Source of the DNA: Chitinibacter bivalviorum
Lineage (GTDB): Bacteria; Pseudomonadota; Gammaproteobacteria; Burkholderiales; Chitinibacteraceae
Length of the DNA: 64,000 nucleotides
NCBI RefSeq assembly: GCF_013403565.1
Contig: NZ_CP058627.1
Span: 1,798,001-1,862,000, forward strand
Direction of reading: 5' to 3'
Under the pieces are notes generated by a model, which was given only the letters and a program-made list of their open reading frames with translations, did not search any database and was not told the origin of the DNA. Position numbers and translations under genes: made by a program. This document shows, in pieces, positions 1,066 to 61,343 of the stretch; the first letter of the stretch is position 1; each line of letters begins with the position of its first letter.

Positions 1066-1260
1066 ATGAGCGATCAAGCCCCTGCCATCCAACCCCAAGC
1101 CTGCCCCAAATGTGGCGCGCCCGCCGAACAACACAAAGCAGGTTCAAACCGCTTCTGGGTGCAATGCAGTAAATTAGGTCGCCAAGGCAATTGCAGCGCA
1201 ATTGGCCAGCAAGGCACGAATAAGAAAGAAGCCATTGCGGCGTGGAACAAACTCAAATAG
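1066..1260 (+). CDS. Lar-like small zinc-ribbon protein
   Basis: A 64-residue protein with an N-terminal CPKCGAP knuckle near residues 14-20, two later cysteines (VQCSK and GNCSA) and the C-terminal pattern KKEAIAAWNK. That arrangement is typical of the Lar (restriction alleviation) domain, named from a phage Rac protein but widespread as small zinc-ribbon proteins of unknown role. A GTGAGGA ribosome site lies seven bases before the ATG. It stands alone between the pntB terminator and a convergent membrane protein gene. No phage genes are nearby, so an anti-restriction role is not implied. The stop codon overlaps a copy of the 49-bp repeat. Confidence 0.75.
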   Translation: MSDQAPAIQPQACPKCGAPAEQHKAGSNRFWVQCSKLGRQGNCSAIGQQGTNKKEAIAAWNKLK

Positions 1261-1307
1261 GTATTACTCTGTAAATCATTATTTACAAAGCATTCGAGCA
1301 CATACCC
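1259..1307 (+). repeat. 49-bp palindromic repeat, copy 1
   Basis: Member of the dispersed 49-bp family described in the findings. It runs from AGGTATT to ATACCC and overlaps the lar-like stop codon. The centre holds a perfect hairpin, TGTAAAT-CATT-ATTTACA (1270-1287). The interior is diverged from the other copies; assignment rests on both ends, the exact length and the position. Confidence 0.6.
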
Positions 1308-1344
1308 TCGTCAAAATCTACAATATCAAATGATGTATGGCCAG

Positions 1345-1842
1345 TTAAGCCGCGCCATGGCGAGGGGTGCGGCGAAATAGCAGTCGATGTAGCCAAGTCG
1401 ATACACCGAGCAAAAATAAAAACGCCCCAAGCACAAATACCGGCGCCCAAGGTAGCCAATTGAGGGCTGGACGATTGATTATGGCGTTGCTGGGCTGACG
1501 TGGGTCATAAATCACTGACACGGTTTCTGGCACGCCACCTTGATATTCGCGCCCATTCCAGTCCTGAAAATAAATCGTTTGAGCATCATTGCGAAAAACC
1601 ACTACGGCAGTAAACCAGCGCTCTGCGCCGGGTGTGGCAGCGCCACGCTCGAGGTATTGCACGACTTGCCCTGTCGTTTGCTCGCCACGCACCATGAGCG
1701 CAAAGCGATCAATACCCGTCCAATAACCAAATCCCATCAGCAATAGCCCAACGCCCATTTGGATATACACGATAGCACGCAGATAGGACGCGCCCACTTT
1801 GGCGACATCATGATTGAGCGTAGTTTCATCGGGCATAGGCAT
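1345..1842 (-). CDS. DUF3592 membrane protein
   Basis: A 165-residue protein with two hydrophobic segments (about residues 24-44 and 130-152) flanking a soluble beta-rich region. The interior contains the hallmarks of the DUF3592 family: a TTGQVV start of the domain, a WFTAVVVF strand and VSVIYDPRQPSNAII. The biochemical function of the family is unknown; the sequence suggests an inner-membrane protein with one periplasmic or cytoplasmic loop domain. The first ATG was used, although no clear ribosome site precedes it and an ATG two codons later is equally possible. It is convergent with the lar-like gene and shows no operon partner. Confidence 0.8.
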   Translation of the reverse strand: MPMPDETTLNHDVAKVGASYLRAIVYIQMGVGLLLMGFGYWTGIDRFALMVRGEQTTGQVVQYLERGAATPGAERWFTAVVVFRNDAQTIYFQDWNGREYQGGVPETVSVIYDPRQPSNAIINRPALNWLPWAPVFVLGAFLFLLGVSTWLHRLLFRRTPRHGAA

Positions 1843-1939
1843 GGCTAAGACATCGAGCAGTCAATATCTTTGCATCTTAGTGGTAATAGATGACGTTGAG
1901 ATAGTTAATTGACGTATTTTGTAATTGTCGTCGCCCATA

Positions 1940-1966
1940 AAAAAACGCCTTCGATGAAGGCGTTTT
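1940..1966 (-). terminator. Terminator of the chitin-binding protein gene
   Basis: A perfect stem AAAACGCCTTC-GAT-GAAGGCGTTTT starts 20 bases beyond the stop of the minus-strand gene at 1986, with a T run on that strand. Confidence 0.85.
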
Positions 1967-1985
1967 GGTCATTTCATATTGCAAA

Positions 1986-4007
1986 TTACTGGCAGGTGCC
2001 TAAATCAGCCCACACGCCCCACTGACCAGTCAGGCTTGGGTTTTCATTCACAGTCCACCATTTAGACTGGTAATTGTGCTTGCCATAAGACACCACCGTG
2101 CCAGCCTTATCGTAAGACGTCGTCGCTGACCATGCTGGCGCGCACACCGTGATACCCGCTGCTGGCGTCGCCGTTGGTGCTGTGGTTGGAGCTACAGTTG
2201 GCACAGTGGTAGGTACGGCCGTTGGTGCAACTGTTGGTACTGCAGTTGAAGCAGGCGTAGGCGCTGTCGTTGGTGCTACCGTCGGCGCTGGTGTTGGCGT
2301 TACAACTGGTGCTGTAGTGGCTGTCGGTGCTGGTGTCGCAACCGCAGTTGGCGCAGGGGTTGCACCACTGGTCGTGCTGGTACGCCATACTTTGCCGCTA
2401 CCATCAGCGCCAGAATTGGTCGCAGGATCATCACCGACGGTATACCACATCGCAGTATAGGTCTGACCGCCTTGCGTTACGCAAGCGCCAGCCTGATACA
2501 CCATGCCAACTTGCCATGCGGCACAGTTGCTGCCAGCAACTGGCGTCGCTGTGGGCGCCAAAGTAGGCAATGGTTTAGTGCTGCCTTCGCCGTTGTTCAG
2601 ACCGAGAGCTTTAATTCGGTTCCACAACCAGCCACCATCGTCTTTCACATTATCCGTGCCAGCAATCGACGTGGTTGAACCACCACCCCAGATCACAGAA
2701 AACACATTGGCGGCTTTCAATTGATTTAGGTGGCCCGTTTGCCAGCATGAGGCTTCAGTGCTTGGACATTTGAGGAAATCTTTTACAGTAACCGCGCCAT
2801 TGAGCACATACGAGCTATTGGTCGGCATGGCTTTATCGCCGTAGTACGCTTGCAGATTGCTCGCTGCCGAATTCACATTGGCATCGCCCAAGATATAGGT
2901 CGCATCGCTGCTGGCGTGGTCGCCGCGGCTATCCACATCACCAGTCACTTGCAAATGACCGCCAGGCATTTGCCACAGCATCACCGGCTTGTCACCCAGT
3001 TGCTGCGACACTTGCTTCACGTACTCGGTATACACGCCATACGTTGGCGCGTTATACAAATAGCCGCCTTGCAAACCATTTTGCGCCATGGTCGAAAACA
3101 CATCGCGTTCCCACTTATCAAAGGCGATAAAGTCAGGATTCATATTTGCTTCTGGATTGCCATACACCTTCATGGTTTGCAGGAAGTTTTTCACTGCAGT
3201 GGCATGTGGCGTAATCAGGCTAGCGTCTTGGCTGGCTTGATGCAACCAGCCGTGACCAGTTTGATCGCCAGCCCAGACGTTGTAATGCCAGCCATAAGGG
3301 ATATTCGGGCCAAATTTGCGCACCAGCCAGTTCAATGAACGGATGTAATTAGGCAATGTGGTATTGCTGGCCATAAATTCAGCTGGAATATCAGCTTTGC
3401 TCAGACCCAAATAATCAAACGCCTCGTTCAAACCGCTCGCAACGGGTACGGCGTAATCAAATGGTGTTGGGCAATAGCCGGGTTGGCAAGATTTGTGCAT
3501 CTCGCCCAAGAAATCGGGGTTCAGCAACAGCGTTGCTGGCACTGGGTGCTTCGCGTCTTTATAGCTTTCAAGCTGTTTGAGCATGCTAATCAGGTTGATA
3601 TAGTGATTGCGCAAATAGTGCTTGGTGCTGTCATTGCTCAAATCAAGCTGAATGGTGTAGTGGCTAGAGCTGCCATCCACGGTGTAGAACACAATCGTCG
3701 GCATAAAAGTTTGCCCGGCCAGATTGCTTTCCATGCCGCGTACATACTGCATGATTTTTTGAATTTTGGTGTCGTTGGTAATAATCGTCTCACGATCACC
3801 ATCACCGCCTTGACCCGCATAGGTAAATAGCGCGTCCACTGGGCGCTGCTGCAATAATGGCAATTCAGAGCCACCATTGATCACGCCGCCCATTGATATC
3901 TTACTACTAGACCAGCCAGGCACTGCGGCCATCACAGGCGTTGCAATTTGGCTCGCCAGTAAACAGCTCAATACTGCGGTACGAATTTTATTGTTTGTTT
4001 TGCGCAT
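1986..4007 (-). CDS. Secreted chitin-binding protein, putative glycoside hydrolase with two CBM5/12 domains
   Basis: A 673-residue exported protein. Signal peptide 1-27 (cleavage near PVMA-AV); a large N-terminal domain about 30-475; a short PT-rich linker; a CBM5/12-type chitin-binding domain about 495-544 (AWQVGMVYQAG, YTAMWYTVGDDP); a 77-residue Pro/Thr/Ala linker 545-621; a second CBM5/12 domain 622-673 (TTSYDKAGTVV, YQSKWWTVNENP). The two aromatic-rich domains show that the target is chitin or a similar polysaccharide. The N-terminal domain lacks the DxxDxDxE motif of GH18 chitinases, and I do not recognise its family. Conserved-looking stretches are DFIAFDKWERD (292-302) and MLWQMPGGHL (343-352), suggestive of a TIM-barrel hydrolase, so acidic residues there are catalytic candidates. 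An AGGA ribosome site precedes the ATG. The gene is monocistronic. Confidence 0.8.
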   Translation of the reverse strand: MRKTNNKIRTAVLSCLLASQIATPVMAAVPGWSSSKISMGGVINGGSELPLLQQRPVDALFTYAGQGGDGDRETIITNDTKIQKIMQYVRGMESNLAGQTFMPTIVFYTVDGSSSHYTIQLDLSNDSTKHYLRNHYINLISMLKQLESYKDAKHPVPATLLLNPDFLGEMHKSCQPGYCPTPFDYAVPVASGLNEAFDYLGLSKADIPAEFMASNTTLPNYIRSLNWLVRKFGPNIPYGWHYNVWAGDQTGHGWLHQASQDASLITPHATAVKNFLQTMKVYGNPEANMNPDFIAFDKWERDVFSTMAQNGLQGGYLYNAPTYGVYTEYVKQVSQQLGDKPVMLWQMPGGHLQVTGDVDSRGDHASSDATYILGDANVNSAASNLQAYYGDKAMPTNSSYVLNGAVTVKDFLKCPSTEASCWQTGHLNQLKAANVFSVIWGGGSTTSIAGTDNVKDDGGWLWNRIKALGLNNGEGSTKPLPTLAPTATPVAGSNCAAWQVGMVYQAGACVTQGGQTYTAMWYTVGDDPATNSGADGSGKVWRTSTTSGATPAPTAVATPAPTATTAPVVTPTPAPTVAPTTAPTPASTAVPTVAPTAVPTTVPTVAPTTAPTATPAAGITVCAPAWSATTSYDKAGTVVSYGKHNYQSKWWTVNENPSLTGQWGVWADLGTCQ
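2145..2375 (-). repeat. Low-complexity Pro/Thr/Ala linker coding repeat
   Basis: Degenerate tandem units of about 12-18 bases encode the PTA(V)PT-type linker between the two chitin-binding domains. The periodic DNA also creates long spurious open frames on the opposite strand. Such tracts are prone to length change by slippage. Confidence 0.8.
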
Positions 4008-4220
4008 GTCTCATCCTCTCATGAATGGTTTTATTGCTCGCCTTTTGCTGACAAAAAGCTTGCAATTTTTATGGCGCAATTGATTTTTAAGCCGATTTGA
4101 AATCGTTTTTTACCTGAAAAATCAATCACGTAAAACCATCATTACGAGGGTTAATTCGCTTGTCAACTTTATTGCAGCACAGCCATAAACAGGTATTAGC
4201 TGGCTTACAAGATTGGTATC

Positions 4221-4258
4221 TTGAATAAGCGCTTTATTCAATTGGCATATGCAATTGG
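4221..4258. promoter_or_regulatory. Candidate operator upstream of the chitin-binding protein gene
   Basis: In the 436-bp gap 4008-4443 there is a perfect 8-bp inverted repeat TTGAATAA-N5-TTATTCAA (4221-4241). It runs directly into a near-palindrome ATTGGCATATGCAAT (4241-4255) flanked by two CAATTGG direct repeats 13 bases apart. This lies about 215 bases before the start at 4007. The symmetry suggests a repressor or activator site; the protein is unknown. Apart from this and the terminator at 4371 I see nothing else in the gap. Confidence 0.35.
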
Positions 4259-4370: not shown

Positions 4371-4402
4371 ACAAAGCCATACCCCAATCGGTATGGCTTT
4401 GT
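4371..4402 (-). terminator. Terminator after dinB-family gene
   Basis: A perfect 13-bp stem (ACAAAGCCATACC / GGTATGGCTTTGT) with a six-base loop lies about 40 bases beyond the minus-strand stop at 4444. T-rich sequence follows on both strands. Confidence 0.75.
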
Positions 4403-4443
4403 ATTTATTATGAACCATCACTTTCAGGGCAATACATCCAAAG

Positions 4444-5342: not shown

Positions 5343-5367
5343 GCAGTCACATACAGACCACTTGGTC

Positions 5368-6069: not shown

Positions 6070-7065
6070 TCACTTGACAGAGCCAAAAGTCTGCAAGACC
6101 ACTTTCCCAATATTATGGTTTTGCGCCAGATACTCATGCGCGGCCGCCGCTTCGCTGAACGCAAAAGTCCGATCAAGCGTGACACGAAATTCGCCGCTGC
6201 TAATGCGCGGCAGCACATATTCTCGTAGCGCTTGTGTTAATTGAGCTTTGCGCCCCAGCGGCAGGCTGCGCAGCGTCGAGCCCGTGATGCGCTGACGCTT
6301 CACCAGCAATAGCCCCAAATTGAGCTGCGCCTCAACGCCGCCCAAGAGGCCAATGACGATCATCTGCCCATCCTGATTCAAACAACGTTGATTACCAGCC
6401 AGATACGCGCCACCGATGGTATCCAAAATAAGATCAGCACCGCCCGCCGCTTTGACCTCGGCAGCAAAATCTTGCCTGCGATAATCGATCACCAAATCTG
6501 CCCCCAATTCGCGACAGAAGGCTTGTTTTTCAACAGAGCTGGTCGTGATCGCCACCCAAGCGCCGCAGGCTTTGGCCAGCTGAATTGCTGCAGCTCCCAC
6601 GCCGCTAGCACCAGCATGAATCAACACACGCCGCTCATTGCTGCTGCCGTCCAAACGCAAAGCGCCAAGCTCGATCAAATTCAGCCACACCGTCAGCCAT
6701 GCCTCGGGCAAGCTTGCCGCAGCAACATTACTCAGGGTATCTATCAGCAAGCAAGATAATGATTGCTCTAGCAGGCAATACTCCGCATAAGCACCACCCG
6801 CCACTAAGCCAAAAACCCGATCACCAACACGAAAATCACTGACGCCCTCGCCCAGTGCTAGCACCTCACCAGCGATTTCCAGCCCCAGAATTTCCGACTC
6901 GCCCGGCGGCGGCGGATATTTGCCGCTGGCCTGCACCAGATCGGCTCGATTGAGGCCCGCTGCGGCCACCTTCACCAGCAATTGGCCTGCAGCCGGCGTC
7001 GGTATCGGCGCGTCCCCTAGCAATAGCTCGCCTTGTTCGGCTGTCCAAGCTTGCATTACCGTCAT
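6070..7065 (-). CDS. NAD(P)H:quinone oxidoreductase, PIG3-like
   Basis: A 331-residue zinc-independent medium-chain dehydrogenase/reductase of the quinone oxidoreductase type. The N-terminal GroES-like half shows GLNRADLVQASGKYPPPPG and GLEIAGEV, very like the PIG3 subgroup. The Rossmann half shows HAGASGVGAAAIQLAKACGA (nucleotide-binding glycines) and GLLGG. It probably reduces quinones with NADPH in the cytoplasm. AAGGA lies eight bases before the ATG at 7065, preferred over the ATG at 7071. The segment EYCLLEQSLSCLLIDTLS departs from the usual family pattern exactly where a 49-bp match to the dispersed repeat lies (6735-6783). Confidence 0.88.
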   Translation of the reverse strand: MTVMQAWTAEQGELLLGDAPIPTPAAGQLLVKVAAAGLNRADLVQASGKYPPPPGESEILGLEIAGEVLALGEGVSDFRVGDRVFGLVAGGAYAEYCLLEQSLSCLLIDTLSNVAAASLPEAWLTVWLNLIELGALRLDGSSNERRVLIHAGASGVGAAAIQLAKACGAWVAITTSSVEKQAFCRELGADLVIDYRRQDFAAEVKAAGGADLILDTIGGAYLAGNQRCLNQDGQMIVIGLLGGVEAQLNLGLLLVKRQRITGSTLRSLPLGRKAQLTQALREYVLPRISSGEFRVTLDRTFAFSEAAAAHEYLAQNHNIGKVVLQTFGSVK

Positions 7066-7152
7066 GGCCATTGTCCTTGTGTTACAGCATTTTGCTCATT
7101 ATGAGTTGGCTCGGACACACCTAATGGCTTAGCCAAACCACTCGCTCGTCGT

Positions 7153-7699: not shown

Positions 7700-8005
7700 T
7701 TATCCTGGCTGCACCCCGTCATACCCTTCCACAATCACCAAATCAATCTCACAGGCTCCGTCGCGCAGTGCTTTGGCGTTTTGATACGGTACGGAGTTAT
7801 AGCAATCAAGGGCGGCTTGGTAGCTGGGGAATTCAACGATGGTGTTGCGTGAACGGGTATTGCCTTCTACGCATTGATACTGGCCAGCTCTAGCCAGATA
7901 CTGGGCGCCGTACTCTGCGAGAGCTGCGCCGTTGGCGGCGATGTAGGCTTGAAAGGTTTCTAGCTGGGTGATGTCGAGGCGGACGATCCAATATCCTTTG
8001 GCCAT
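7700..8005 (-). CDS. DUF1330 domain protein
   Basis: A 101-residue protein of the DUF1330 family, a small dimeric alpha/beta-barrel fold. It begins AKGYWIVRLDITQLETFQAY, with RNTIVEFPSYQAALDCYNS and VPYQNAKALRDGACEIDLVIVEG in the expected positions. No reaction is known for the family. The ATG at 8005 is chosen because it begins the domain; the longer frame to 8047 adds residues outside it. It is the next gene downstream of zapE on the same strand (67-base gap). Confidence 0.85.
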   Translation of the reverse strand: MAKGYWIVRLDITQLETFQAYIAANGAALAEYGAQYLARAGQYQCVEGNTRSRNTIVEFPSYQAALDCYNSVPYQNAKALRDGACEIDLVIVEGYDGVQPG

Positions 8006-11064: not shown

Positions 11065-11655
11065 TTAGTGGCCTGAGCCGCCCAATGGCATCACGTCGCG
11101 GCCGTAGATTTCATTTAATACCTGAGCCATTGCCGCATAAATGGCCGATGCGCCGCAAATAATGCCTTCAACGCCAGCAATCTGCTTAATCGTGGCGCTG
11201 CCAGTGAAATCGCCTAAGGCCAGCAAAAAGAACAATACGGTGAGTGAGCCAAAAATAAATTGGGTGGCGAAATTCATTCTCAAAGTACCGATAAACAGGA
11301 AGGCAGTAAAAATACCCCATACCAGTAAGTACCAAGCCATGGCTGTTTCACTGGCTTTTGCAGCAATACCCATCTGAGGCATTACAATCAGCGCCACTAA
11401 GGTCAGCCAGAACATCCCATAAGACGTAAATGCGGTCATACCGAAGGTATTATTTTTCTTGGATTCCATGATCCCGGCAATGACTTGGGCAAGACCACCG
11501 TAGAAAATACCCATGGCTAAGATCATCGCGTTGAGCTCAAACAGGCCTGCATTATGCAAGTTGAGCAAAACGGTGGTCATACCAAAGCCCATCAGGCCTA
11601 GCGGTGCGGGGTTGGCGGATGTATCGGTGACTGTAATTTGAGATGCTTGGGACAT
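11065..11655 (-). CDS. Acetate uptake transporter, SatP/YaaH (GPR1/FUN34) family
   Basis: A 196-residue inner-membrane protein with six hydrophobic segments and the family signature [20 protein letters not shown] near the N-terminus. Members of this family (E. coli SatP, yeast Ato proteins) import acetate, succinate or related monocarboxylates with protons. The start at 11655 follows AAGGAAG at good spacing; the longer open frame has no ribosome site. It is a single gene convergent with the binding-protein gene. Confidence 0.92.
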
Positions 11656-14507: not shown

Positions 14508-14556
14508 GGGTATAGCCCTAAGATCTCGCATAAGTATTGATTTCACAGCAATACCC
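14508..14556 (+). repeat. 49-bp palindromic repeat, copy 2
   Basis: Runs from GGGTATAGC to GCAATACCC, beginning one base after the tas stop. One further G and C extend the ends symmetrically. It is in the 3' region between convergent tas and the ABC ATPase gene, whose own terminator lies at 14605. Confidence 0.8.
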
Positions 14557-25251: not shown

Positions 25252-25300
25252 AGGTATATCGCTACAGTCATTTTAGAACAATGACTTTAGCGATATACCC
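25252..25300 (+). repeat. 49-bp palindromic repeat, copy 3
   Basis: A nearly complete palindrome: GGTATATCGCT...AGTCATT / AATGACT...AGCGATATACC with a seven-base loop and two mismatched bases. It starts five bases after the cysB stop, between cysB and the convergent NUDIX gene. Confidence 0.85.
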
Positions 25301-31348: not shown

Positions 31349-32995
<1,647 letters not shown>

Positions 32996-33016: not shown

Positions 33017-35056
33017 TTAGTTTGTTTTTAATTGCAAAATCGTAATACTGCGCGCCGCCACTCGGCAGTCGCGACCAGAAAAATCCGATTGGGTATCACC
33101 CGTACTCGCCAAGCGCATCGTCCATTCGCCCACAGACAATGGTGGCAAGTGAAAATGCACCTGATGCGCAGACGCATTAATTAGCACGAGAAATTGATTC
33201 GACAACAACACCATCATCGCGCGCCCACCATGGTCATCCCAGTCGTGGGGCTGCATTGGGCTAGCGGATGGATTAAGCCAAACCACATCGGTGATGCCCG
33301 CCGCATCGGGCTGGCTGGTCCACCAATCATTTATGCTTAATGCATGACACTCGCGTCGAATGGCGATCAATTCGGCGATATAGTTGGTCAATTCTGAATT
33401 GGCGTTTTGCCAATTGAGCCAAGTTATTTCATTGTTTTGGCAATAGGAGTTGTTATTGCCTTGCTGGCTGTGCCCCAGCTCATCGCCCGCCAGCAACATC
33501 GGCGTGCCTTGGCTTAACAATACGGTGGCGAGCAAAGCCTTGCTGGCACGGAGCCGCAGTAAATTCACGCCTTCATCCGTCGACGGGCCTTCCAAGCCGC
33601 AATTCCAGCTCAGGTTGTGGCCATGGCCATCGCGGTTGTGTTCTTTATTGGCGTGATTGTGTTTGTGGTTGTACGACACCAAATCGCGCAGATTAAAACC
33701 ATCGTGTGCGGTGATGAAATTCAAACTCGCTTCGGGGCGACGGTGACCTTTATGAAAGGTATCACTTGAGGCGGCAAAGCGGCGCGCAAACATCGCGCGC
33801 GTCACACCATCGTGCAACCAAAATTTGCGCATTACGTCGCGGTATTGGTCGTTCCACTCGACCCAACCAACAGGGAAATGCCCCAGTTGATAACCGCCAG
33901 CGCCAATATCCCACGGCTCGGCGATCAATTTCACACTCGATAATTGCGGGTCTTGCGCAATGGCGGAGAAAAACGGCGCAAACGTCGTATATTTGCCATC
34001 CAAGCGTCCCAAAATCGGCGCCAGATCAAAACGGAAACCGTCGACGTGACATTCATTCACCCAATAGCGCAGGCTATCCATCACCAGCTGCAATACGCGA
34101 GGATGGCTGATATTCAATACATTGCCGCAGCCAGTCCAATTCTCGTATTGATCGGGGTGTTGTGGATTTAGAACGTAGTAACTGGCATTGTCGATACCAC
34201 GAAATGACAAGGTCGGACCGAGTTCATCGGTCTCGGCAGTGTGGTTAAACACCACATCCAAAATCACCTCAATGCCCGCGCCGTGCAGCGCTTTGACCAT
34301 CTCGCGAAATTCAGACAAGGGCGTAGTGCCGACCCGACCTGACCAATATGTTGATTCCGGCGCAAAAAAACTTTGCGTGTTGTAGCCCCAGTAATTTTGC
34401 AATCCGAGCTTTTGCAAACGCGGCTCATCGGCATGCAAATGCACGGGCAATAACTCGATCGCGCTAATGCCCAACTTCTTGTAATGCGCCAGCATCACGG
34501 GGTGAACCAAAGCCGCATAGCTGCCGCGAATTTCCGCCGGAATATCGGGGTGTAGTTGTGTCAAGCCGCGGACATGCGCTTCATAAATGACCGTTTGTGC
34601 CCATGGTGTTTTTGGCGCGGCATCGGCGCCCCAATCAAAAGGCTCGGAAACCACGACTGCCTTTTGTGCCACATGGGTATTATCTTGCGCATCAGGCTGA
34701 TTATGATCTAGCGAGCTATACCCTAGGCTAACATCATCGATCACATAGCGACCCAATACCGCCTTGGCATATGGATCGAGTAGCAATTTATTGGCATTAA
34801 AACGATGACCACGCTGCGGCAGATATTCGCCATGCACCCGATAGCCATACACCTGCCCCGGTTTGGCATCGGGTAAATAACCATGCCACACCCCATGCGC
34901 ACATTCGGGCAAAGCCAGCCGCGCCGTTTCGTTAATGCCATTCGCATCAAACAAGCACAGCTCGACCTTGCTGGCGTGCTCGCTAAACAGCGCGAAATTA
35001 ACCCCGTCGCCATCAAAGGTTGCACCGAGCGGATAAGGAGTGCCAGCCTCTAGCAT
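33017..35056 (-). CDS. glgX: Glycogen debranching enzyme
   Basis: A 679-residue GH13 isoamylase-type enzyme that removes short alpha-1,6 branches left by GlgP. It has an N-terminal CBM48-like domain (GVNFALFSEHASKVELCLFD). The GH13 motifs are DVVFNHTAE, GFRFDLAPILGR (nucleophile Asp), LIAEPWDIG (acid/base Glu) and FITAHDGFNLRDLVSYN. The start codon overlaps the glgB stop as TAATG, which indicates coupled translation. Confidence 0.96.
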   Translation of the reverse strand: MLEAGTPYPLGATFDGDGVNFALFSEHASKVELCLFDANGINETARLALPECAHGVWHGYLPDAKPGQVYGYRVHGEYLPQRGHRFNANKLLLDPYAKAVLGRYVIDDVSLGYSSLDHNQPDAQDNTHVAQKAVVVSEPFDWGADAAPKTPWAQTVIYEAHVRGLTQLHPDIPAEIRGSYAALVHPVMLAHYKKLGISAIELLPVHLHADEPRLQKLGLQNYWGYNTQSFFAPESTYWSGRVGTTPLSEFREMVKALHGAGIEVILDVVFNHTAETDELGPTLSFRGIDNASYYVLNPQHPDQYENWTGCGNVLNISHPRVLQLVMDSLRYWVNECHVDGFRFDLAPILGRLDGKYTTFAPFFSAIAQDPQLSSVKLIAEPWDIGAGGYQLGHFPVGWVEWNDQYRDVMRKFWLHDGVTRAMFARRFAASSDTFHKGHRRPEASLNFITAHDGFNLRDLVSYNHKHNHANKEHNRDGHGHNLSWNCGLEGPSTDEGVNLLRLRASKALLATVLLSQGTPMLLAGDELGHSQQGNNNSYCQNNEITWLNWQNANSELTNYIAELIAIRRECHALSINDWWTSQPDAAGITDVVWLNPSASPMQPHDWDDHGGRAMMVLLSNQFLVLINASAHQVHFHLPPLSVGEWTMRLASTGDTQSDFSGRDCRVAARSITILQLKTN

Positions 35057-37245
35057 TAATCTTTACTCCAGCGCAGATACACTGTCGCTAATGGGGGTAT
35101 TGTCATGCAAACTGACTCTGGTCTAGCGTGAGCAGCAATACATTCGGTAGGTAACTTCAAATTACCGGTATTGCTGCCGCCATAATATTCAGAATCTGTA
35201 TTGAGAATTTCACGATATACACCGGCCCGAGGCACACCGAGGCGATAGCCGTGGCGTGGTACAGGGGTGAAATTACTCACGACCACGATAAATTCATTCT
35301 CGTCTTCACCCTTGCGGATAAAGCTGAAAATCGAATTATCGGCGTCATCATGGCTAATCCACTCAAAACCGCGATGATCGAAGTCAATTTGATAGAGCGC
35401 AGGCGAATCGCGATACACCTGATTCAAATCGCGCACCAGATGTTGCACGCCACGGTGCCAGCCATTATCAGGATCATCGACTAAATGCCAATCGAGGCTA
35501 GTATCGTGATTCCACTCGCGGCCTTGCGCAAATTCGCACCCCATAAACAGCAATTTCTTGCCCGGATGCGCCCACATATAGGCGTAGTAAGCGCGCAAAT
35601 TAGCAAATTGCTGCCAGCAATCGCCGGGCATCTTGGCCAGCATCGAGCCTTTGCCATGCACCACTTCATCGTGCGAAATTGGTAGTACAAAATTCTCACT
35701 AAATGCGTACACCAAGCCAAACGTCAGCAAATGATGATGATATTTGCGATGCACCGGGTCTTGCTGCATATAGCGCAGCGTGTCGTTCATCCAGCCCATA
35801 TTCCATTTGTAATGAAATCCCAGCCCGCCCATCGCCGGTGGGCGTGACACCGATGGAAACGCAGTTGACTCTTCGGCCAGCGTAATCGCTTCAGGCCGCT
35901 CAACACCAACGACTTCATTCATCCGGCGCATAAAATCAATGGCTTCCAGATTTTCGCGCCCGCCAAATTGATTCGGAATCCATTCGCCGTCTTTACGCGA
36001 ATAATCGCGATACAACATCGAGGCCACAGCATCGACGCGCAGACCATCAATACCGTAACGCTCAATCCAATACAGCGCATTGCCAATTAGGTAATTGCGT
36101 ACTTCATTGCGTCCAAAGTTGTAAATCAGCGTGTTCCAGTCCTGATGAAAACCTTCGCGTGGATCGCTATGCTCATACAGATGCGAGCCATCAAATTGCG
36201 CGAGGCCATGGCTATCGGTCGGAAAATGACCAGGCACCCAATCGAGGATGACACCGATGCCGTTTTCATGTGCGGTCAATACTAAATGACGAAAATCATC
36301 AGGGGTACCAAATCGAGATGTCGGCGCATAAAGACCTAGCGGCTGATACCCCCACGAACCATCAAATGGATGCTCGTTCACTGGTAATAATTCGATATGG
36401 GTAAAGCCCATATATTTCACATAATCGATCAGCTCGACCGCCAGCTCGCGGTAGCTCAACCAGCGATTACCTTCTTCGGGGCGACGGCGCCACGAAGCCA
36501 GATGTACTTCATAAATCGAAACGGGCGCATTCAGAGCATTGGCGGCTTTACGCGTTTGCGTGCCTTCAACCCAAGCAGGCAGGCGTGCGACACGCGACGC
36601 AGTTGCGGGCCGCATTTCAGCCGAAAAACCATATGGGTCGGCTTTAATTTGCAACGCGCCATGTTGATCGATGATTTCGTATTTATAACCCTGCCCTTCC
36701 TGGACGTTCGGCAGGAAGATTTCCCACACGCCACATTCACGGCGCAAACGCATCACATGGCGGCGACCATCCCAGTAATTAAAATCGCCCACTACCGAAA
36801 CACGGCGCGCATTCGGCGCCCAGACGGCAAAAGCCACGCCATCGACGCCATCCATAGTGCGAAAATGTGTACCGAGGCGCTCGTACGGACGCAGCTGATT
36901 GCCTTCTCCGAGCAACCATAAATCCATATCCCCCAACACCGGCGGAAAACGATAAGGATCTTCGATATCCACCGTTTCGCCACGCCAAGTCACCTGCAAG
37001 CGATACGCAAAGTGATTCTTCCGCCGCGGCACCACTACGCTAAAAAAACCACGATCATCAATGCGCTCTAGCTGAGCGAGTTTTTTGCCGGTTTTACTTT
37101 CAATCAAGCTGCATTCACTAGCATTGGGTAGCCAAGCTCGAACTTGCAAAGCACCATCGCAAAGATGCATACCTAAAAAAGAAAATGGATCAGCGTGCAG
37201 GCCAGCACATACGGCGGCGATTTGTGCAGAATCGACAGGAATCAT
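35056..37245 (-). CDS. glgB: 1,4-alpha-glucan branching enzyme
   Basis: A 729-residue GH13 enzyme that makes alpha-1,6 branches. It has an N-terminal N1 domain, then a CBM48 domain ([20 protein letters not shown]). The catalytic barrel has [19 protein letters not shown] (nucleophile Asp), AEESTAFP (acid/base Glu) and [14 protein letters not shown], followed by a C-terminal beta domain. Length is like that of E. coli GlgB (728). GAGG lies five bases before the ATG. It is the first gene of the glycogen operon, so the operon promoter should lie in 37246-37418. Confidence 0.97.
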
Positions 37246-39867: not shown

Positions 39868-39916
39868 GAGTATTGCCATGAAATCACTATAAATGTTGAT
39901 TTTTATGGCAATACCC
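39868..39916 (+). repeat. 49-bp palindromic repeat, copy 4
   Basis: Runs from GAGTATTGCCAT to ATGGCAATACCC, with long arms (about 18 pairs with two mismatches) and an A/T-rich loop. It lies just beyond the terminator of the PEP-CTERM gene, the only intergenic copy separated from its gene by a terminator. Confidence 0.85.
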
Positions 39917-40010: not shown

Positions 40011-40763
40011 ATGCTAGCCCGTTTGCGTGAAAATATTCGCGTGGTTTTTGACCGCGACCCTGCAGCCCGCTCGACACTGGAAGTGGTGATCTGTTATCCA
40101 GGTTTTCATGCATTAACCCTGCACATCGTGGCGCATGGATTGTGGAAGCGTGACTGGAAACTATTGGGGCGTATAGTCTCGCACGCCTCACGCTTCTTGA
40201 CTGGCATCGAGATACACCCCGGAGCCACTATCGGCCGACGGGTTTTTATCGATCACGGCATGGGCATTGTCATCGGTGAAACGGCCGAAATTGGCGACGA
40301 TTGCACGCTTTACCATGGTGTCACACTGGGCGGCACCTCATGGAATCATGGCAAGCGCCACCCGACCTTGGGCAAGGGCGTCATCATTGGCGCGGGCGCA
40401 AAGATACTTGGGCCAATTACGCTGCACGACGGCGCTAAGGTCGGCTCAAACGCTGTTGTGGTCAAAGACGTACCAGAAAACGCCACTGCAATTGGCATTC
40501 CAGCTCGCGTACTGGCGGCGCAAATCGAACAAGCTCGTGAAGAAAAAGCCGAACAACTCGGTTTTTCTGCTTACGGCGTGGGCGCTGATATGAACGATCC
40601 GATGGTGAAAGCGATCCATGGCCTGCTCGATCATTCGGTCACCACCGACAAACGCCTGGAAATGGTGCTGGCTCGTCTTGAAGCCTTGGGCGTTGACTGC
40701 GCCGAAGAAAGGGCAACAGCCGATAAGTTTGACCCAACTTACCTCAATAAAATCGTTGATTAA
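40011..40763 (+). CDS. cysE: Serine O-acetyltransferase
   Basis: A 250-residue cytoplasmic enzyme that acetylates serine to O-acetylserine for cysteine synthesis. N-terminal helical part, then the left-handed parallel beta-helix with hexapeptide repeats: [40 protein letters not shown] (catalytic His and Asp), [13 protein letters not shown]. The C-terminal tail is extended compared with short CysE forms. It directly precedes iscR, a common betaproteobacterial arrangement linking cysteine supply to IscS. No obvious ribosome site precedes the ATG. Confidence 0.95.
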
Positions 40764-43257: not shown

Positions 43258-43306
43258 GGGTATAGCGCCAAAGATCTTTCATCAATTGATTTTCGGCGCA
43301 ATACCC
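43258..43306 (+). repeat. 49-bp palindromic repeat, copy 5
   Basis: Runs GGGTATAGCGCC to GGCGCAATACCC, with one mismatch in the 12-base arms. It fills the iscU-iscA gap, starting six bases after the iscU stop and ending three bases before the iscA ribosome site GGAG. Confidence 0.9.
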
Positions 43307-44303: not shown

Positions 44304-44352
44304 GGGTATATGCCTGAAATCGTTTTAGATAAATAATTTCAGGCATATACCC
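44304..44352 (+). repeat. 49-bp palindromic repeat, copy 6 (perfect palindrome arms)
   Basis: The most symmetric copy: 17-bp perfect arms GGGTATATGCCTGAAAT / ATTTCAGGCATATACCC around a 15-base loop. It lies in the hscB-hscA gap, 22 bases after the hscB stop. No U tract follows, and hscA continues the operon. Confidence 0.95.
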
Positions 44353-46634: not shown

Positions 46635-46683
46635 GCGTATTGGCTTGAAAACCTTTGATTGATTAGCCTTCATGGCAATACAT
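46635..46683 (+). repeat. 49-bp palindromic repeat, copy 7 (degenerate)
   Basis: Runs GCGTATTGGC to GGCAATACAT in the fdx-iscX gap, starting immediately after the fdx stop. Both ends are diverged but the length is still exactly 49 bp and the GAAAAC...GATT core is recognisable. Together with the iscX ribosome site it fills the whole gap. Confidence 0.7.
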
Positions 46684-48813: not shown

Positions 48814-49626
48814 ATGACAAGTACAATCAAGGGTATAGCCCAACTTATCTTTTCAGCACTCGCATTGAGCAGCATACCCTGCCATGCCGAAGTAGATATG
48901 GGCAGTCTTGCTGTATCACCATTGAGCAATCACTCGGCCTCTAGCCCTATACCCGATGGCTTTATCGTCGGCGGTGTAGGGCTCTATGGACAGTCGCGTT
49001 ATCAAGCCGAAAGCAATACTACGATGGCGATTCCTGGCTTTCTGTATTTTGGCAGCCAGTTTTTGTTTCTCGGCGATCGGGTGCGCTACTACGTGTATAA
49101 CCAAGACGCGCTTTCAGCTTATCTTTACGGCCGAGTGCGAATGGGTAATCTCAACCCCGCTGACAATGCCGCATTTGCAGGCATGAACAAACGTAAATGG
49201 GAGTTAGAAGCGGGTTTGGGCGGCTCCTACATCACACCCTACGCGGTATTATCGACCCGCGCAGCGAGCGATGTCACCGGCACCAGTAATGGGCAAGAAT
49301 TACTGCTGTGGGCAGACTTCCCGATCAGCAGGGACAATTGGCTCATTATGCCCGGCGCTGGCGTTTTCATCCGTAGCGCCAACTTTTCGAACTATTATTT
49401 CGGCGGCGTATCGGCAAGCGAAGCAACTGCCACGCGTCCCGCATGGAATACGGGTACCACCGTCGATGTTGGTTTCTCTTTAATTACCTCGTATCGCTTT
49501 AATAAAAACTGGCTAGGCACTTTTTCTGCCAATTATGAGCTGTATGACTCGAGCATCAGAAATAGCCCATTGGTGCAACATCGCGGGGAACTGTATGTGA
49601 TCGCTGGGCTGGGGTATATGTGGTAA
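48814..49626 (+). CDS. MipA/OmpV family outer-membrane protein
   Basis: A 270-residue outer-membrane beta-barrel protein. Signal peptide about residues 1-26 (LIFSALALSSIPCHA). The body has alternating strands with GGVGLYGQSRY, GSQFLFLGDRVRYYVYN, ELEAGLGGSYITPYAVL and the C-terminal barrel end YVIAGLGYMW, as in MipA/OmpV. MipA of E. coli contacts murein synthesis enzymes; other members act as porins or adhesins. The start at 48814 gives a proper signal peptide. A stretch matching the 49-bp repeat (48831-48879) lies within the signal-peptide coding region. Confidence 0.85.
   Translation: MTSTIKGIAQLIFSALALSSIPCHAEVDMGSLAVSPLSNHSASSPIPDGFIVGGVGLYGQSRYQAESNTTMAIPGFLYFGSQFLFLGDRVRYYVYNQDALSAYLYGRVRMGNLNPADNAAFAGMNKRKWELEAGLGGSYITPYAVLSTRAASDVTGTSNGQELLLWADFPISRDNWLIMPGAGVFIRSANFSNYYFGGVSASEATATRPAWNTGTTVDVGFSLITSYRFNKNWLGTFSANYELYDSSIRNSPLVQHRGELYVIAGLGYMW
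48831..48879 (+). repeat. Possible 49-bp repeat inside a signal-peptide coding sequence
   Basis: Exactly 49 bases from GGGTATAGCCC to GCATACCC, with the TTATCTTTTC core like other copies. It would encode most of the MipA-like signal peptide (KGIAQLIFSALALSSIP). The ends and length match the family, but the coding context makes chance resemblance possible. Confidence 0.5.
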
Positions 49627-52412: not shown

Positions 52413-52461
52413 GGGTATATTGATGAGATGCTTTATTTAAAAGATCTGCATTGATATACCC
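52413..52461 (+). repeat. 49-bp palindromic repeat, copy 8
   Basis: Runs GGGTATATTGATG to GCATTGATATACCC between convergent prmB and the diguanylate cyclase gene. The outer eight bases of each arm pair perfectly. It is the only hairpin-like element between the two genes. Confidence 0.85.
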
Positions 52462-54254: not shown

Positions 54255-54303
54255 GGGTATTACCTCCAAATCCTTTTCAGCCAAGCCCTACCCAGCCATA
54301 CCC
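54255..54303 (+). repeat. 49-bp palindromic repeat, copy 9 (degenerate)
   Basis: Exactly 49 bases from GGGTATTACC to GCCATACCC, three bases after the small membrane protein stop. The interior keeps the CAAATCCTTTTC core, but the right arm is diverged. Confidence 0.7.
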
Positions 54304-56337: not shown

Positions 56338-56343
56338 GAGCAT

Positions 56344-56435: not shown

Positions 56436-56446
56436 ATCTTTACAAC

Positions 56447-57492: not shown

Positions 57493-59967
57493 TTATTGCA
57501 AGATTTGTAAAGGTGAGGTCTTCGACAGCCGCCATAAACGCCGCCCTACCGTGACCGCCGCCAGCAACATGCCCGCCAGCGCCGAGTAGAATGGCAAGCT
57601 CCAATTGATTAGCCAAGGCAATTTAAACAAGGTCTGGGCGACGTACCAAGCCCCCACTGCGGCCACCGTGCCGGCCAGTAAGCCCGCCACAGCCCCCAGC
57701 AACAGGCTTTCCAGCCACCAGATCTGCGCGATTTTGCGCGTACTAGCCCCCAACGCCCGCATCAACGCCGCCTCGTAACGACGTTCGGCTTCATTGGTGT
57801 CGAGCGCCGCCAGCAAGACGGTCAAGCCTGCGAGCAAACACATCACAAATACCAAGCGCAAGGCTGCGCTGGCCAGACTGATCACCGACTCAACTTGAGC
57901 CAGCACTTGCCCCACGTCGATCACCGTCACATTCGGCAACGCATGCACGAGCTCTGGCACCAGTTGCTTGGCGCTCGGCGGCAGATAAAAACTACTGATC
58001 AAACTGCTCGGCTGTCCCTGCATCATGTACTCGCTGCCGATCACAAAGAAATTCGCGCGAAACGAGCCCCAATTGACTTTGCGAAAATTCACCACCGGCG
58101 CACTCACCGCCGTACCAGCAATATCAAAGGTCAGCACATCGCCTAGCTTGATGCCCAATTGCTTCGCCAGCTCAATTTCAACCGACCAACCGGGCTGATC
58201 TACGCGCAATGCTGGCCCCTCCACGCGCTGATTATCGCTGCGTTCATCATCGCCCCATGAGAGATTAAATTCTCGCTCTGCAAGGCGCTGCGCTCGCTCT
58301 TCGGTAAAAGCGCGTGGATTGACCGCGACCTGATTGTGCAAGGTCCAGCGGCCACGTATCATCGGTAAGATTTTCGGCTCAGCGAGCCCTGCCCTGGTAA
58401 ACAATTGCGCAAATTGTGCCTCCTGTTCGGGCTGAATATTCACGGCAAAATGATTCGGTGCGTTAGCGGGCACTTGATTGCGCCAAGCGGCGAGCAGGTC
58501 TTGCTGCACAACGGTGAGCAGCCACAAACCGCACAAACCCAGCATCAGCGCGGCTAATTGCGCCAACACTAAGCCGGGTTGACGCAGCATCTGCCGCAAG
58601 GCAATTTTCGCCGCACCGCGCGGAAATAATCGCTGCAATAGTTTGAGTATCGCCCAACCCAAGGCGGCAACCAGCAAGAGCGCTAGCACAATACCCCCAC
58701 CCACTATAGCCGCCAACTTAATATCCTGAGATATTTGTATCAATATACCCGCCATGGCCAATATCGTTATGCCGTATTGCCACAACCAATGGGCGCTAGG
58801 GACTAATTCGCGGCGCAAGACGCGTAATGGCGACGTTTTGGCCAGAGTCAGCAATACTGGGCCCGCCGAGCCCAACAATAAAACCAAACCGAGTCCACTC
58901 GCCCACAACCACGGCGCAAGACTCGCGGCCGGTAATGCAGCGGGAAGTTGATCGGCAATCGCAAATACTAAAATCAACTGCGCCAGCCAGGCCAGCGCGC
59001 CGCCCATTACTGCAGCAAAACCCAGCAGCAATAGCAACTGACTTAACAGCAGCCGCCGCACCATGGCCTGACTCGCCCCCAGCGTCCGCAGCAAAGCGAC
59101 CGTATCAAAATGGCGCAAAGCAAAGCGTCGTGCCGCCAGCACAATGGCAACCGCCGCCAAGACACCCGCCAAGAGTGCAGCCAGACGCAAAAAGCGCTCG
59201 GCGCGATCAATGGCTTCTTTGAGCTCGGGGCGCGAGTCACGCACATTCTCGAGGCTTTCCCCGCGAGCCAATTGCGGTTTTACCGCTTGCTGCCAGCGCG
59301 CAAGGCTAGCTTCATCACCCGCGACCATCAGCCGATACTTCACCCGACTGCCAAAGCCCAATAGACCGCTGCGCGCCAAATCGGCCTCATTCATCAATAC
59401 GCGGGCCTGCAAGCTAGAAAAATCAAAGGCCGCATCCGGCTCGCGGTCGATAATGCCGCGTACTTTTAATTTGAGCTGACCCAGGCTAATGTCATCACCG
59501 ACCTTGAGCCGTAACACCGCTTGCAATCGCTGATCAATCAGCGCCTCGCCTGCGCGCGGGGTCTGCGCCACATCAGGGGCCAGCACGGTCAACTGACCGC
59601 GCAGTGGGTAAGTTGCACTCACCGCCTTCACGGAGGCCAGACTCGTTTGCTCTCCCGCACTGACCATCGATGGAAAGGTGGCTGAGCTGGCCAACCTCAA
59701 ACCGTCTTGTTGGGCTAATTGCGCGTATTTGGGGGCAATCGCATGATCGGCAATCAGTACCGCATCTGCGGCTTGCAGTTGATTGGCTTGCCCGAGTAGC
59801 AATCGCTCGACGCGCTCGGTAAGCATCCCGACTGCGGTCAGCGAAGCAATGGCGATCGTCAGCGCCAAGAGCAGCGTTTTATATTCGCCAGCGCTCATGC
59901 TGCGACGAAACAATTTCCAATCTAGCGCCCAACGAGTGCGCGATGGCATTAAGCTAGGTGCTGTCAT
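57493..59967 (-). CDS. ybbP: ABC transporter permease, YbbP/FtsX-like
   Basis: An 824-residue inner-membrane protein with two FtsX-like domains: an N-terminal helix and large periplasmic region, a four-helix bundle near 260-460, a second periplasmic domain and a final set of helices ending RLWRLSKTSPLQILQ. This layout matches E. coli YbbP (804). With YbbA and TesA it forms a conserved neighbourhood; the substrate is thought to be lipid- or envelope-related but is not established. Its start overlaps the ybbA stop as ATGA. The segment GILIQISQDIKLAAIVG coincides with a possible repeat copy. Confidence 0.9.
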   Translation of the reverse strand: MTAPSLMPSRTRWALDWKLFRRSMSAGEYKTLLLALTIAIASLTAVGMLTERVERLLLGQANQLQAADAVLIADHAIAPKYAQLAQQDGLRLASSATFPSMVSAGEQTSLASVKAVSATYPLRGQLTVLAPDVAQTPRAGEALIDQRLQAVLRLKVGDDISLGQLKLKVRGIIDREPDAAFDFSSLQARVLMNEADLARSGLLGFGSRVKYRLMVAGDEASLARWQQAVKPQLARGESLENVRDSRPELKEAIDRAERFLRLAALLAGVLAAVAIVLAARRFALRHFDTVALLRTLGASQAMVRRLLLSQLLLLLGFAAVMGGALAWLAQLILVFAIADQLPAALPAASLAPWLWASGLGLVLLLGSAGPVLLTLAKTSPLRVLRRELVPSAHWLWQYGITILAMAGILIQISQDIKLAAIVGGGIVLALLLVAALGWAILKLLQRLFPRGAAKIALRQMLRQPGLVLAQLAALMLGLCGLWLLTVVQQDLLAAWRNQVPANAPNHFAVNIQPEQEAQFAQLFTRAGLAEPKILPMIRGRWTLHNQVAVNPRAFTEERAQRLAEREFNLSWGDDERSDNQRVEGPALRVDQPGWSVEIELAKQLGIKLGDVLTFDIAGTAVSAPVVNFRKVNWGSFRANFFVIGSEYMMQGQPSSLISSFYLPPSAKQLVPELVHALPNVTVIDVGQVLAQVESVISLASAALRLVFVMCLLAGLTVLLAALDTNEAERRYEAALMRALGASTRKIAQIWWLESLLLGAVAGLLAGTVAAVGAWYVAQTLFKLPWLINWSLPFYSALAGMLLAAVTVGRRLWRLSKTSPLQILQ
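58702..58750. repeat. Possible degenerate 49-bp repeat inside ybbP
   Basis: On the plus strand it runs from CACTATAGCC to AATATACCC, exactly 49 bases. Only the right end matches the family fully. It would encode GILIQISQDIKLAAIV on the minus strand. Weak evidence; listed because of the length. Confidence 0.3.
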
Positions 59968-60680
59968 CGCGCCTCCTCAGTCGTTGGCGCCAACCATTCA
60001 ATGACTTCACCACCCTGCAAACGCAAACGATGTGAGCAGCGTGCAGCCAGCATTTCATCGTGTGTCACCAGCACCAGCGTCGCCCCCATTTCGCGATTGA
60101 GCTCAAATAGCAAATCGGCGATCACCGCCCCCGTCGCGGTATCAAGGCTGCCAGTAGGTTCATCGGCAAACAGGACGGCAGGCTTGGGCGCAAAGGCCCG
60201 CGCCAGCGCCACCCGCTGTTGCTCGCCGCCCGAAAGTTGGCGCGGTAAATGATTCAGACGATGTTTCAAACCCACCCGCTCTAGCCATTTCAAGGCGCGA
60301 GCCTCGGCATCGACGTCGCCGATTAACTCCAGCGGTAGCATGACATTTTCTAAAGCCGTTAATTCGGGCAGCAATTGAAACGATTGAAAGACAAAGCCAG
60401 CCAATTGGCCACGAACACGCGCGCGGCCGTCTTCATCGAGCAATTGCAAAGCTTGTCCTTGCAACAGCACCTCACCCTGCGTGGGTAAATCCAGCCCCGC
60501 CAACAGCGCCAGCAAGCTCGATTTACCTGAGCCAGAGCGCCCCACAATCGCCAAACTAGCGCCAACTGGTACACTGAAATTAATATCATGCAAAATCGTC
60601 AGCGACTGCGCCTCGGTCTCGACCGACTTATGCAAATGATGCACCGCAATCATGGCAGCTTTTGGAGTAAATTCAGACAT
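59964..60680 (-). CDS. ybbA: ABC transporter ATPase, YbbA/LolD-like
   Basis: A 238-residue ATPase pairing with YbbP. Walker A AIVGRSGSGKSSLLALLAGL, signature QLSGGEQQRVALARAFAPKP and Walker B LFADEPTGSLDTATG, with H-loop VTHDE. It is very like E. coli YbbA. The ATG at 60680 was chosen, giving an overlap of the start codon with that of tesA on the other strand. A TTG two codons earlier (60686) has better spacing from AAGGA and is a real alternative. Confidence 0.92.
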   Translation of the reverse strand: MSEFTPKAAMIAVHHLHKSVETEAQSLTILHDINFSVPVGASLAIVGRSGSGKSSLLALLAGLDLPTQGEVLLQGQALQLLDEDGRARVRGQLAGFVFQSFQLLPELTALENVMLPLELIGDVDAEARALKWLERVGLKHRLNHLPRQLSGGEQQRVALARAFAPKPAVLFADEPTGSLDTATGAVIADLLFELNREMGATLVLVTHDEMLAARCSHRLRLQGGEVIEWLAPTTEEAR

Positions 60681-61284
60681 GTTCAAACGTTTCCTTATCA
60701 GCCTATTCGGCGGTTTAAGCTTGCAGCACGCGGCCTTTGCGGCCGACCCCGTGATACTGGTGTTTGGCGACAGCCTCTCGGCGGGTTACGGCATCGCGGC
60801 CAATCAGGCTTGGCCTAGTTTGCTCGGACAACAGTTGGTGCAACAAGGTAAAAAATATCGCGTGGTCAATGCCAGTGTGTCAGGTGAAACGACAGCGGGA
60901 GGGCTAACAAGATTCCTTGCGACACTCAAACAACATCAGCCTAAATGGGTTATTTTGGCGCTGGGCGCGAACGACGGGCTACGCGGACTACCCATCGCGA
61001 CCATGCAAAACAATCTGGCCGAGATGATTCGCCAGTCTCAAGCCAGCGGCGCCAAAGTGCATTTAATCGGGATGCAAATGCCGCCCAATTACGGCGCGGC
61101 CTACACCCAGCAATTTGCCGCGGTTTACCCCGCCCTTGCCAAACAATATCGCACCAGCCTGACGCCATTTTTATTAGCACCGATCATTCAGCAAAATAAC
61201 TACTTTCAAGCGGACCAGTTTCACCCGACTGCGGCAGCGCAGCCACTGTTGCTGAAAGCGATTTTGCAAGATCTAAAACTATAA
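60679..61284 (+). CDS. tesA: TesA-type arylesterase / acyl-CoA thioesterase I (lysophospholipase L1)
   Basis: A 201-residue periplasmic SGNH hydrolase. Signal peptide 1-20 (LFGGLSLQHAAFA). Block I VFGDSLSAGYGI contains the nucleophile Ser, block III is LALGANDGLRGLP, and block V is DQFHPTAAAQ with catalytic Asp and His. It hydrolyses acyl esters and thioesters. Gene order divergent from ybbA-ybbP is the same as in E. coli. GGAG lies 11 bases before the ATG, inside the ybbA coding sequence. Confidence 0.94.
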   Translation: MFKRFLISLFGGLSLQHAAFAADPVILVFGDSLSAGYGIAANQAWPSLLGQQLVQQGKKYRVVNASVSGETTAGGLTRFLATLKQHQPKWVILALGANDGLRGLPIATMQNNLAEMIRQSQASGAKVHLIGMQMPPNYGAAYTQQFAAVYPALAKQYRTSLTPFLLAPIIQQNNYFQADQFHPTAAAQPLLLKAILQDLKL

Positions 61285-61294
61285 ATACCCACCA

Positions 61295-61343
61295 AGGTAT
61301 AGCCTTGCAATCATTTTAAATAAATAACCTCGAGGCAATACCC
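61295..61343 (+). repeat. 49-bp palindromic repeat, copy 10
   Basis: Runs AGGTATAGCCT to AGGCAATACCC, ten bases after the tesA stop and two bases before the target duplication of the MITE at 61354. Confidence 0.85.

Follow-up and report, generated by a model that had tools for sequence, protein, structure and literature searches.

A two-fold symmetric 49-bp DNA site repeated in hundreds of copies in Chitinibacter bivalviorum and its relatives

A fixed-length site in the window and across the genome

The analysed DNA is a 64,000-nucleotide stretch of the Chitinibacter bivalviorum genome (NZ_CP058627.1, positions 1,798,001–1,862,000; hereafter the window), in which genes including glgX, hscA and recQ are interspersed with copies of a 49-bp DNA site. 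The invariant core of the site is GTAT-N37-ATAC, with GTAT at bases 3–6 and ATAC at bases 44–47. The window contains 19 sites with this 8-base core, compared with 0.3 expected, and 14 sites of length 49 with at most one mismatch in the twelve end bases (GGGTAT and ATACCC). Dinucleotide shuffles of the window yielded a mean of 0.025 sites of the latter kind and a maximum of 1 in 40 shuffles. An earlier reading of the window from its letters alone (the sequence-only reading) had described ten of these elements as a purely intergenic family of dispersed palindromic repeats. All ten are present where they had been placed, are exactly 49 bp long and carry GTAT-N37-ATAC, but nine further core sites of the window had been left out. 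Moreover, 7 of the 19 core sites lie inside predicted genes, at least one of which (2453..2501) is probably a chance match, and the family is thus not purely intergenic.

The fixed length holds beyond the window. In an 864-kb sample of the genome, composed of two 400-kb stretches and the window, the core occurs in 222 copies, compared with a mean of ∼7 at other spacings, which extrapolates to ∼900 core sites in the 3.58-Mb main contig. A 400-kb stretch contains 30 exact GGGTAT...ATACCC pairs at length 49, and eight other lengths gave no such pair. The whole genome contains 243 exact copies of GGGTAT-N37-ATACCC and 448 of GGTAT-N37-ATACC, and reversed-pattern controls gave 0 and 4 copies, respectively. 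This genome-wide count upholds the view that the elements form one real family of fixed length and common ends with hundreds of copies, and the refuting condition that the sequence-only reading had set, occurrence at chance level, clearly fails (243 exact copies against a control of 0). The hexamer GGGTAT by itself is not enriched (642 occurrences, 251 of them in sites; mean of all hexamers, 415). A search of the window against Rfam returned no match above the gathering score, and a description of such a site was not found in limited searches of the open-licence literature.

The intergenic sites of the window occupy different types of gap. In convergent gaps, the 1259..1307 site has an interior score of 16.1, the 14508..14556 site has exact ends and starts 1 bp past a stop codon, and the 61295..61343 site is found in 5 of the 5 genomes that have that gap. 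Two reported sites fill their convergent gaps. The near-perfect palindrome at 25252..25300 (19 of 22 pairs) is 5 bp from both genes, and G002 and G015, which alone among the other genomes have this gap, also contain a core site in it. The site at 52413..52461 lies 9 and 7 bp from its two genes and is also found in G015. Tandem gaps contain the sites at 39868..39916 (one end mismatch; interior score 18.5) and 43258..43306, the latter two genes ahead of hscA, and the 44304..44352 site lies 37 bp upstream of hscA and forms 20 of 22 pairs. The remaining reported sites are located at 46635..46683, with the variant ends GCGTAT/ATACAT, and at 54255..54303, upstream of recQ and with exact ends. Among the sites absent from the earlier list, 4389..4437 is intergenic, with the ends CGGTAT/ATACAT and an interior score of 14.0, and 48831..48879 has exact ends; of the other genomes, only G002 and G005 have its gap, and both carry a core site there.

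The coding sites of the window range from strong to doubtful. Exact ends are found in the glgX site (34675..34723; gene 33017-35056, minus strand) in six own-genus genomes and, for the site at 35095..35143 in the adjacent gene (35056-37245, minus strand), in the G001, G004 and G005 orthologues. One end mismatch is found at 6735..6783 (gene 6070-7071, minus strand) and at 32482..32530 (gene 31349-32992, minus strand); the G004 orthologue of the latter has an exact site close by, but the stretch contains a 15-bp alignment gap. The site at 7855..7903 (gene 7700-8005, minus strand) and the core match at 40169..40217 (gene 40011-40763, plus strand) are weak, each with two end mismatches. The core match at 2453..2501, inside the minus-strand gene 1986-4007, has an interior score of -3.1. 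A one-mismatch pattern at 36303..36351 in gene 35056-37245, with a GGGTAC end, was rejected as a site, as it lacks the core and is conserved only to the extent that its protein is.

Symmetry, placement and conservation of the site

The site consists of two mirror-image halves. In a sequence logo of 92 noncoding sites, the information content is full at bases 3–6, peaks near bases 12, 15, 18 and 20–21 and then follows the mirror image of this pattern; sites near the ends of the stretches were excluded from the logos and from the analysis of the site ends. The right box takes one of two forms, either ATACCC or ATAC with a GTAT that begins 12–13 bases further on. The distant GTAT accompanies 26 of 51 oriented ends with ATACNT, compared with 17 of 251 with ATACCC. 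Among direct repeats of GGGTAT, only the spacings of 54 (16 pairs) and 53 (12 pairs) stand out, with 2 pairs at the next, and both recur in two other species (6 and 6). The alternative right box goes with these direct spacings. Three coding GGGTAT pairs at spacing 54, all on the minus strand of the window (11312..11371, 28619..28678 and 58691..58750), are tentatively regarded as variants of the site. The GC skew of site interiors exceeds that of the flanks in both 400-kb samples (0.23 vs 0.16 in the first). An orientation relative to replication was considered and dropped; both halves fit the consensus equally, and no functional direction is claimed.

The symmetry of the site is separable from base pairing between its arms. 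In the 80 coding copies of the C. bivalviorum sample, the arms match at 4.89 of 16 positions, compared with 4.85 after shuffling, and 51 coding sites from two other species gave 4.73 in both cases. Because the arms of coding copies do not covary, the two halves match the consensus separately, as in the DNA site of a symmetric protein. The 133 gap copies of this unselected sample exhibit a small excess (6.77 vs 6.32 matches, p 0.008; all p values of this analysis are uncorrected for the number of groups). It stems from a tail of near-palindromes, since 16 of the 133 sites have 11 matches or more, against 3.8 expected. The excess is larger in convergent gaps shorter than 120 bp, both in C. bivalviorum (9.33 vs 7.16, p 0.0005, 21 sites) and in the two other species (8.29 vs 6.06, p 0.0135, 7 sites). 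Tandem gaps of the two other species also exhibit it (34 sites, p 0.006), but in those of C. bivalviorum it is not significant. To judge from these matches, some copies at gene ends have turned into real hairpins as well. The sequence-only reading had held that the arms keep pairing and that compensatory change preserves the hairpin. The arms of its ten copies pair at 8 to 20 of 22 positions, with 20 at 44304 and 19 at 25252. In a structure test, those ten copies, which that reading had selected, do have 71.4% paired cells against 64.0% after shuffling, a value reached by 0 of 500 shuffles, but the compensatory signal does not extend to the coding copies.

The 222 core sites are found in both genes and gaps. 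According to a simple gene caller written for this analysis, 80 lie wholly in predicted genes and 133 are intergenic; the other 9, which overlap a gene partially and have their midpoint in it, were kept apart. Chance, with a total of ∼7 sites, cannot account for the 80 coding sites. Relative to expectation, the sites are enriched 7.0-fold in convergent gaps, 3.5-fold in tandem gaps and 1.38-fold in divergent gaps, with a value of 0.46 for coding DNA. Two other species, pooled, gave 6.1, 3.6, 1.4 and 0.6, respectively. Where the gap is tandem, the site lies a median of 14 bp past the stop codon, compared with 148 bp expected.

Different species retain the sites at the same chromosomal positions, both within genes and in gaps. 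At the glgX site, all 12 end bases are invariant across six own-genus genomes, but only 11 of the 37 bases in between are, and in the same six genomes one codon is kept in only 63 of 345 amino-acid-invariant columns of glgX (Met and Trp excluded). The single g11 orthologue retains the 8-base core, as judged by eye, and G014, a member of the clade, does not have this stretch of glgX. Three outgroup sequences (G011, G020 and G016) align through the glgX site without an insertion or deletion, indicating that the site arose in place, and the second coding site, in the gene next to glgX, likewise aligns with the outgroups without one. At a third coding region (32482), the alignment gap measures 15 bp and not 49 bp. 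The intergenic flanks are not alignable, and this insertion test is thus confined to coding sites. In syntenic gaps of eight clade genomes, a core site is present at 43258 in 7, at 44304 in 6 and at 46635 in 7 of the 8. When all orthologous gaps of 50 bp or longer were compared, 76 genome pairs had a site in common in the same gap, against 30 on average and never more than 50 in 2000 permutations. The interiors of orthologous sites diverge strongly while their position is kept. In 76 site alignments from 15 genome pairs, which are not independent because the same sites recur, 39 cores are conserved, 7 are lost and 30 are gapped. A comparison of G004 with G005 gave little overlap.

Lineages, foreign DNA and a transposon beside the site

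The site is restricted to a narrow lineage. Exact GGGTAT-N37-ATACCC occurs in 100–291 copies in each of 13 of 61 genomes and in 0–3 copies in each of the other 48. The 13 site-rich genomes comprise 6 of the genus Chitinibacter and 7 of two further genera. Among 300 genomes of the order, GGTAT-N37-ATACC exceeds 8 copies in four, with 259–448 copies each, and all four belong to these three genera. A scan of one genome per species (84,980 species) with an 18-base version of the site, from which records of the C. bivalviorum genome itself were possibly excluded, returned 33 stretches. Thirty were from Deefgea, Chitinibacter and Chitinilyticum, and the rest were from one Iodobacter and two other metagenome bins. 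A scan of viral contigs matched 9 stretches. The density of core sites in two other species is 53 and 48 per 200 kb, compared with means of 1.6 and 2.2 at other spacings. Three outgroup genomes (40, 20 and 20 kb examined) were searched de novo for inverted pairs of 5- or 6-mers held at a fixed spacing, and nothing comparable emerged; the sensitivity of this search is limited, since it ranked the site top in seven clade genomes and weakly in G014.

Plasmid-like DNA differs from the chromosome in site content. Sites within two end mismatches are absent from 62,950 bp of plasmid-like contigs, namely C2 (42,950 bp, searched whole) and C3 (20,000 of 30,683 bp searched). Both contigs carry relaxase-primase genes, and C3 contains one bare core match (0.31 expected). 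The large open reading frames of C2 are repeated ∼13.5 kb apart and include a relaxase-primase fusion; C2 may represent a multimeric plasmid or an artefact of assembly. Three sites are found in C4 (20,000 of 28,994 bp searched), which encodes a GlmS-like protein, an SbcC-like ATPase and a Mu-type transposase C-terminal domain and may be a chromosomal fragment that adjoins a Tn7-like insertion. A 25-kb chromosomal stretch (C1 ∼358–383 kb) has no strong-ended site and one bare core, at C1 374,637. Phage-type integrase and primase-like genes are observed in this stretch, which is probably an integrative element.

Members of a transposon family lie at an almost constant distance from the site. In the window, a 195-bp IS1595-type miniature inverted-repeat transposable element (MITE; 61354..61548, plus strand) with the terminal repeats GGGCATGTTCAGAT...ATCTGAACATGCCC lies 10 bp beyond the 61295..61343 site. 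The element is flanked by an 8-bp target duplication, AAAAACAA, whose left and right copies are located at 61346..61353 and 61549..61556, and 8 bp is the usual length of the IS1595 target duplication. The other four genomes with this gap carry the site without the MITE, indicating that the site came first there. All 15 full-length MITE copies of the C. bivalviorum genome (alignments of at least 150 bp; shorter ones were excluded) have a site 8–11 bp outside one end when the best-scoring site is taken for each copy, with 12 copies at 10 bp, two at 11 bp and one at 8 bp. The target duplication is perfect in 10 of the 15 copies and is not so in the other five. Five of nine further MITE loci from G001 and G004 lie exactly 10 bp from a site, and only one end was recognised for the other four. 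In an exact-core check of 51 single MITE ends across the clade DNA examined, a core site was found outside 19 ends within 400 bp, at 10 bp (16 ends), 11 bp (2) or 8 bp (1). The other 32 ends have no core site; many of them are the opposite ends of these same elements, and some are solitary.

The MITE family contains an internal inverted repeat around GTAGGGTGGGTTA, and related genomes contain scattered short matches to its inner part. Beside the same MITE ends, at two contig ends of G001, a 77-residue fragment matches NF033547 (IS1595 transposase; E 2.4e-12, 47.2 bits), below the 75-bit cut-off. The G001 contigs break inside an apparently repeated IS1595-family insertion sequence, of which no intact copy was recovered.

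Candidate functions of the site

The symmetry of the site, its strict spacing over four helical turns, its conservation at the DNA level inside a gene and its use by a transposon together argue for a site that is bound by a multimeric protein. The two-fold symmetry, the many hundreds of copies, the conserved positions and, for two coding copies, the origin in place are observed directly, and together with them recognition by a protein is very probable. For the whole set of observations, the best explanation is a docking site for a multimeric, lineage-specific protein with a chromosome-wide role, which a transposon uses as an address, although this explanation is tentative and its chance of being correct falls slightly short of even. 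In such a docking site, the contacts (bases 3–6, ∼12–18, the AT-rich centre and their mirror images) would be spaced approximately one helical turn apart, which would suit either a tetramer on one face of the DNA or a dimer whose subunits are two-headed. The putative protein may serve a housekeeping or organising role along the chromosome, and its sites could also mark native DNA. The IS1595-type element would take either the site or the bound protein as its address and integrate ∼10 bp outside. Some copies in short convergent gaps have in addition turned into real hairpins, which are probably bidirectional terminators.

Taken more broadly, it is fairly likely that three genera evolved a chromosome-wide addressing system, in which ∼900 sites and a dedicated multimeric protein mark or organise native DNA (or constitute a new uptake signal) and a transposon lands at a fixed distance. 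Transposon targeting and the size of the site fit a chromosome-wide function inside the cell. The sequences parS, matS and KOPS (FtsK-orienting polar sequences) are site-specific chromosome-organising motifs. The 49-bp site resembles them in its fixed chromosomal positions and in its probable recognition by a protein, and differs from parS and matS in its far higher copy number, its longer bipartite structure and its similar density across the sampled chromosome regions. Tn7 at attTn7 and Tn5053 at res are transposons that home to protein-bound sites; the MITE is similar to them in integrating at a nearly fixed distance from its site, and unlike them it has hundreds of possible addresses. If the protein is a chromosome organiser, its footprint would recur approximately every 4 kb, and its occupancy, spacing and evolution could be followed directly in the sequences of a dozen species. 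Insertions of the transposon that reads the site would serve as natural tags and could lead to the protein.

Several observations weigh against a docking protein of this type. Searches for the ParB helix-turn-helix domain, the Y1_Tnp domain and the prepilin N_methyl motif did not separate site-bearing genomes from the others and yielded no candidate for the binding protein; counts of the ParB-type domain are no different in genomes that carry sites and in those that lack them. In two other species, the information peaks at bases 15 and 20 persist, and those at 12 and 18 are barely visible. No chromosome-organising protein known to us combines a site this strict with a copy number this high. 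If ∼900 sites are redundant, it is difficult to see why single ones are conserved, unless each one matters or a drive process maintains them. Moreover, insertion at a fixed distance does not require a host protein, as the transposase could read the DNA directly.

The principal rival to a docking site is an uptake signal, by which competent cells would take up DNA of their kin that carries the site and biased exchange would spread and maintain it. This explanation is unlikely but deserves serious weight, and the distribution of the site fits it well. The DNA uptake sequence (DUS) of Neisseriaceae and the uptake signal sequence (USS) of Pasteurellaceae likewise occur in hundreds of lineage-specific copies, in the core genome, in genes and gaps, and are partly reused as terminators. 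Treangen et al. 2008 place DUS in the core genome and not in recently acquired genes, at permissive yet highly conserved positions, with inverted pairs serving as terminators (PMC2397512), and Frye et al. 2013 mention dyad-symmetric DUS pairs (PMC3630211). The lineage-specific over-representation of hundreds of copies, the lack of good sites in the small sample of plasmid-like contigs, the hairpins in convergent gaps and, in the glgX example, a conserved motif within a variable stretch all agree with uptake. The uptake protein ComEC, a necessary condition only, is encoded by 8 of 8 site-bearing genomes searched, but it is encoded by 35 of 37 genomes overall, most of them without sites, and counts of type IV pilin-like N-termini do not separate the two groups. 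The architecture also differs. DUS and USS are single words of 10–12 bases, whereas here a single short word does not suffice, since two boxes are held 37 bp apart within 49 bp and the lone hexamers are not enriched. An uptake signal of this form would represent an independent origin with a very different mode of recognition and would bear on whether such motifs spread by selection or by drive.

A self-mark, by which a defence or DNA-modification system would tell native from foreign DNA, is improbable. In its favour, the chromosome is rich in sites, whereas the plasmid-like DNA examined has none within two end mismatches. Against it, the 37-bp spacer is far longer than those of the restriction-modification sites known to us, and no candidate system was found, although no search aimed at one was made.

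RNA hairpins that act as terminators or stabilise the 3' ends of messages are a still less probable basis for the family as a whole. The enrichment in convergent and tandem gaps, the median position 14 bp past the stop codon and the covariation in short convergent gaps suit this explanation. As the primary role, it is disfavoured by the 80 of 222 core sites that are coding and lack covariation, and hairpin RNA as the main function was rejected on this ground. A U-tract does not follow the sites (T reaches at most 40% at each of the 25 following positions of 108 downstream-oriented sites), and the intrinsic terminator was rejected as the main identity of the site for this reason. Some sites, as judged by eye, adjoin separate terminator-like hairpins.

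Operators of an ordinary gene regulator would share the two-fold symmetry, but the extrapolated ∼900 copies, the position of divergent gaps as the least enriched gap type and the many coding copies make them very improbable.

The least probable explanation is a mobile palindromic repeat, either a product of a REP-associated tyrosine transposase (RAYT), where REP denotes a repetitive extragenic palindrome, or a minimal MITE. Copy number, symmetry and enrichment near gene ends favour it, and the unalignable intergenic flanks leave room for insertion of some intergenic copies. For coding copies, it is contradicted by the two sites without an insertion or deletion relative to three outgroup genomes; orthologous copies also differ in their interior. 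A dispersed repeat linked to a RAYT is thus not supported, and no Y1_Tnp match (E 0.001) was obtained in G003, G005, G014 and G015, which contain 272, 200, 154 and 100 exact sites, respectively. REPs and the bacterial interspersed mosaic elements (BIMEs) that go with RAYT transposases resemble the site in being palindromic, present in hundreds of copies and close to gene 3' ends. In contrast to them, the site has a fixed length, many coding copies and an in-place origin where this is testable, and requires no RAYT. The C. bivalviorum genome itself contains one weak Y1_Tnp match, and insertion sequences reportedly target REPs (PMC1525189).

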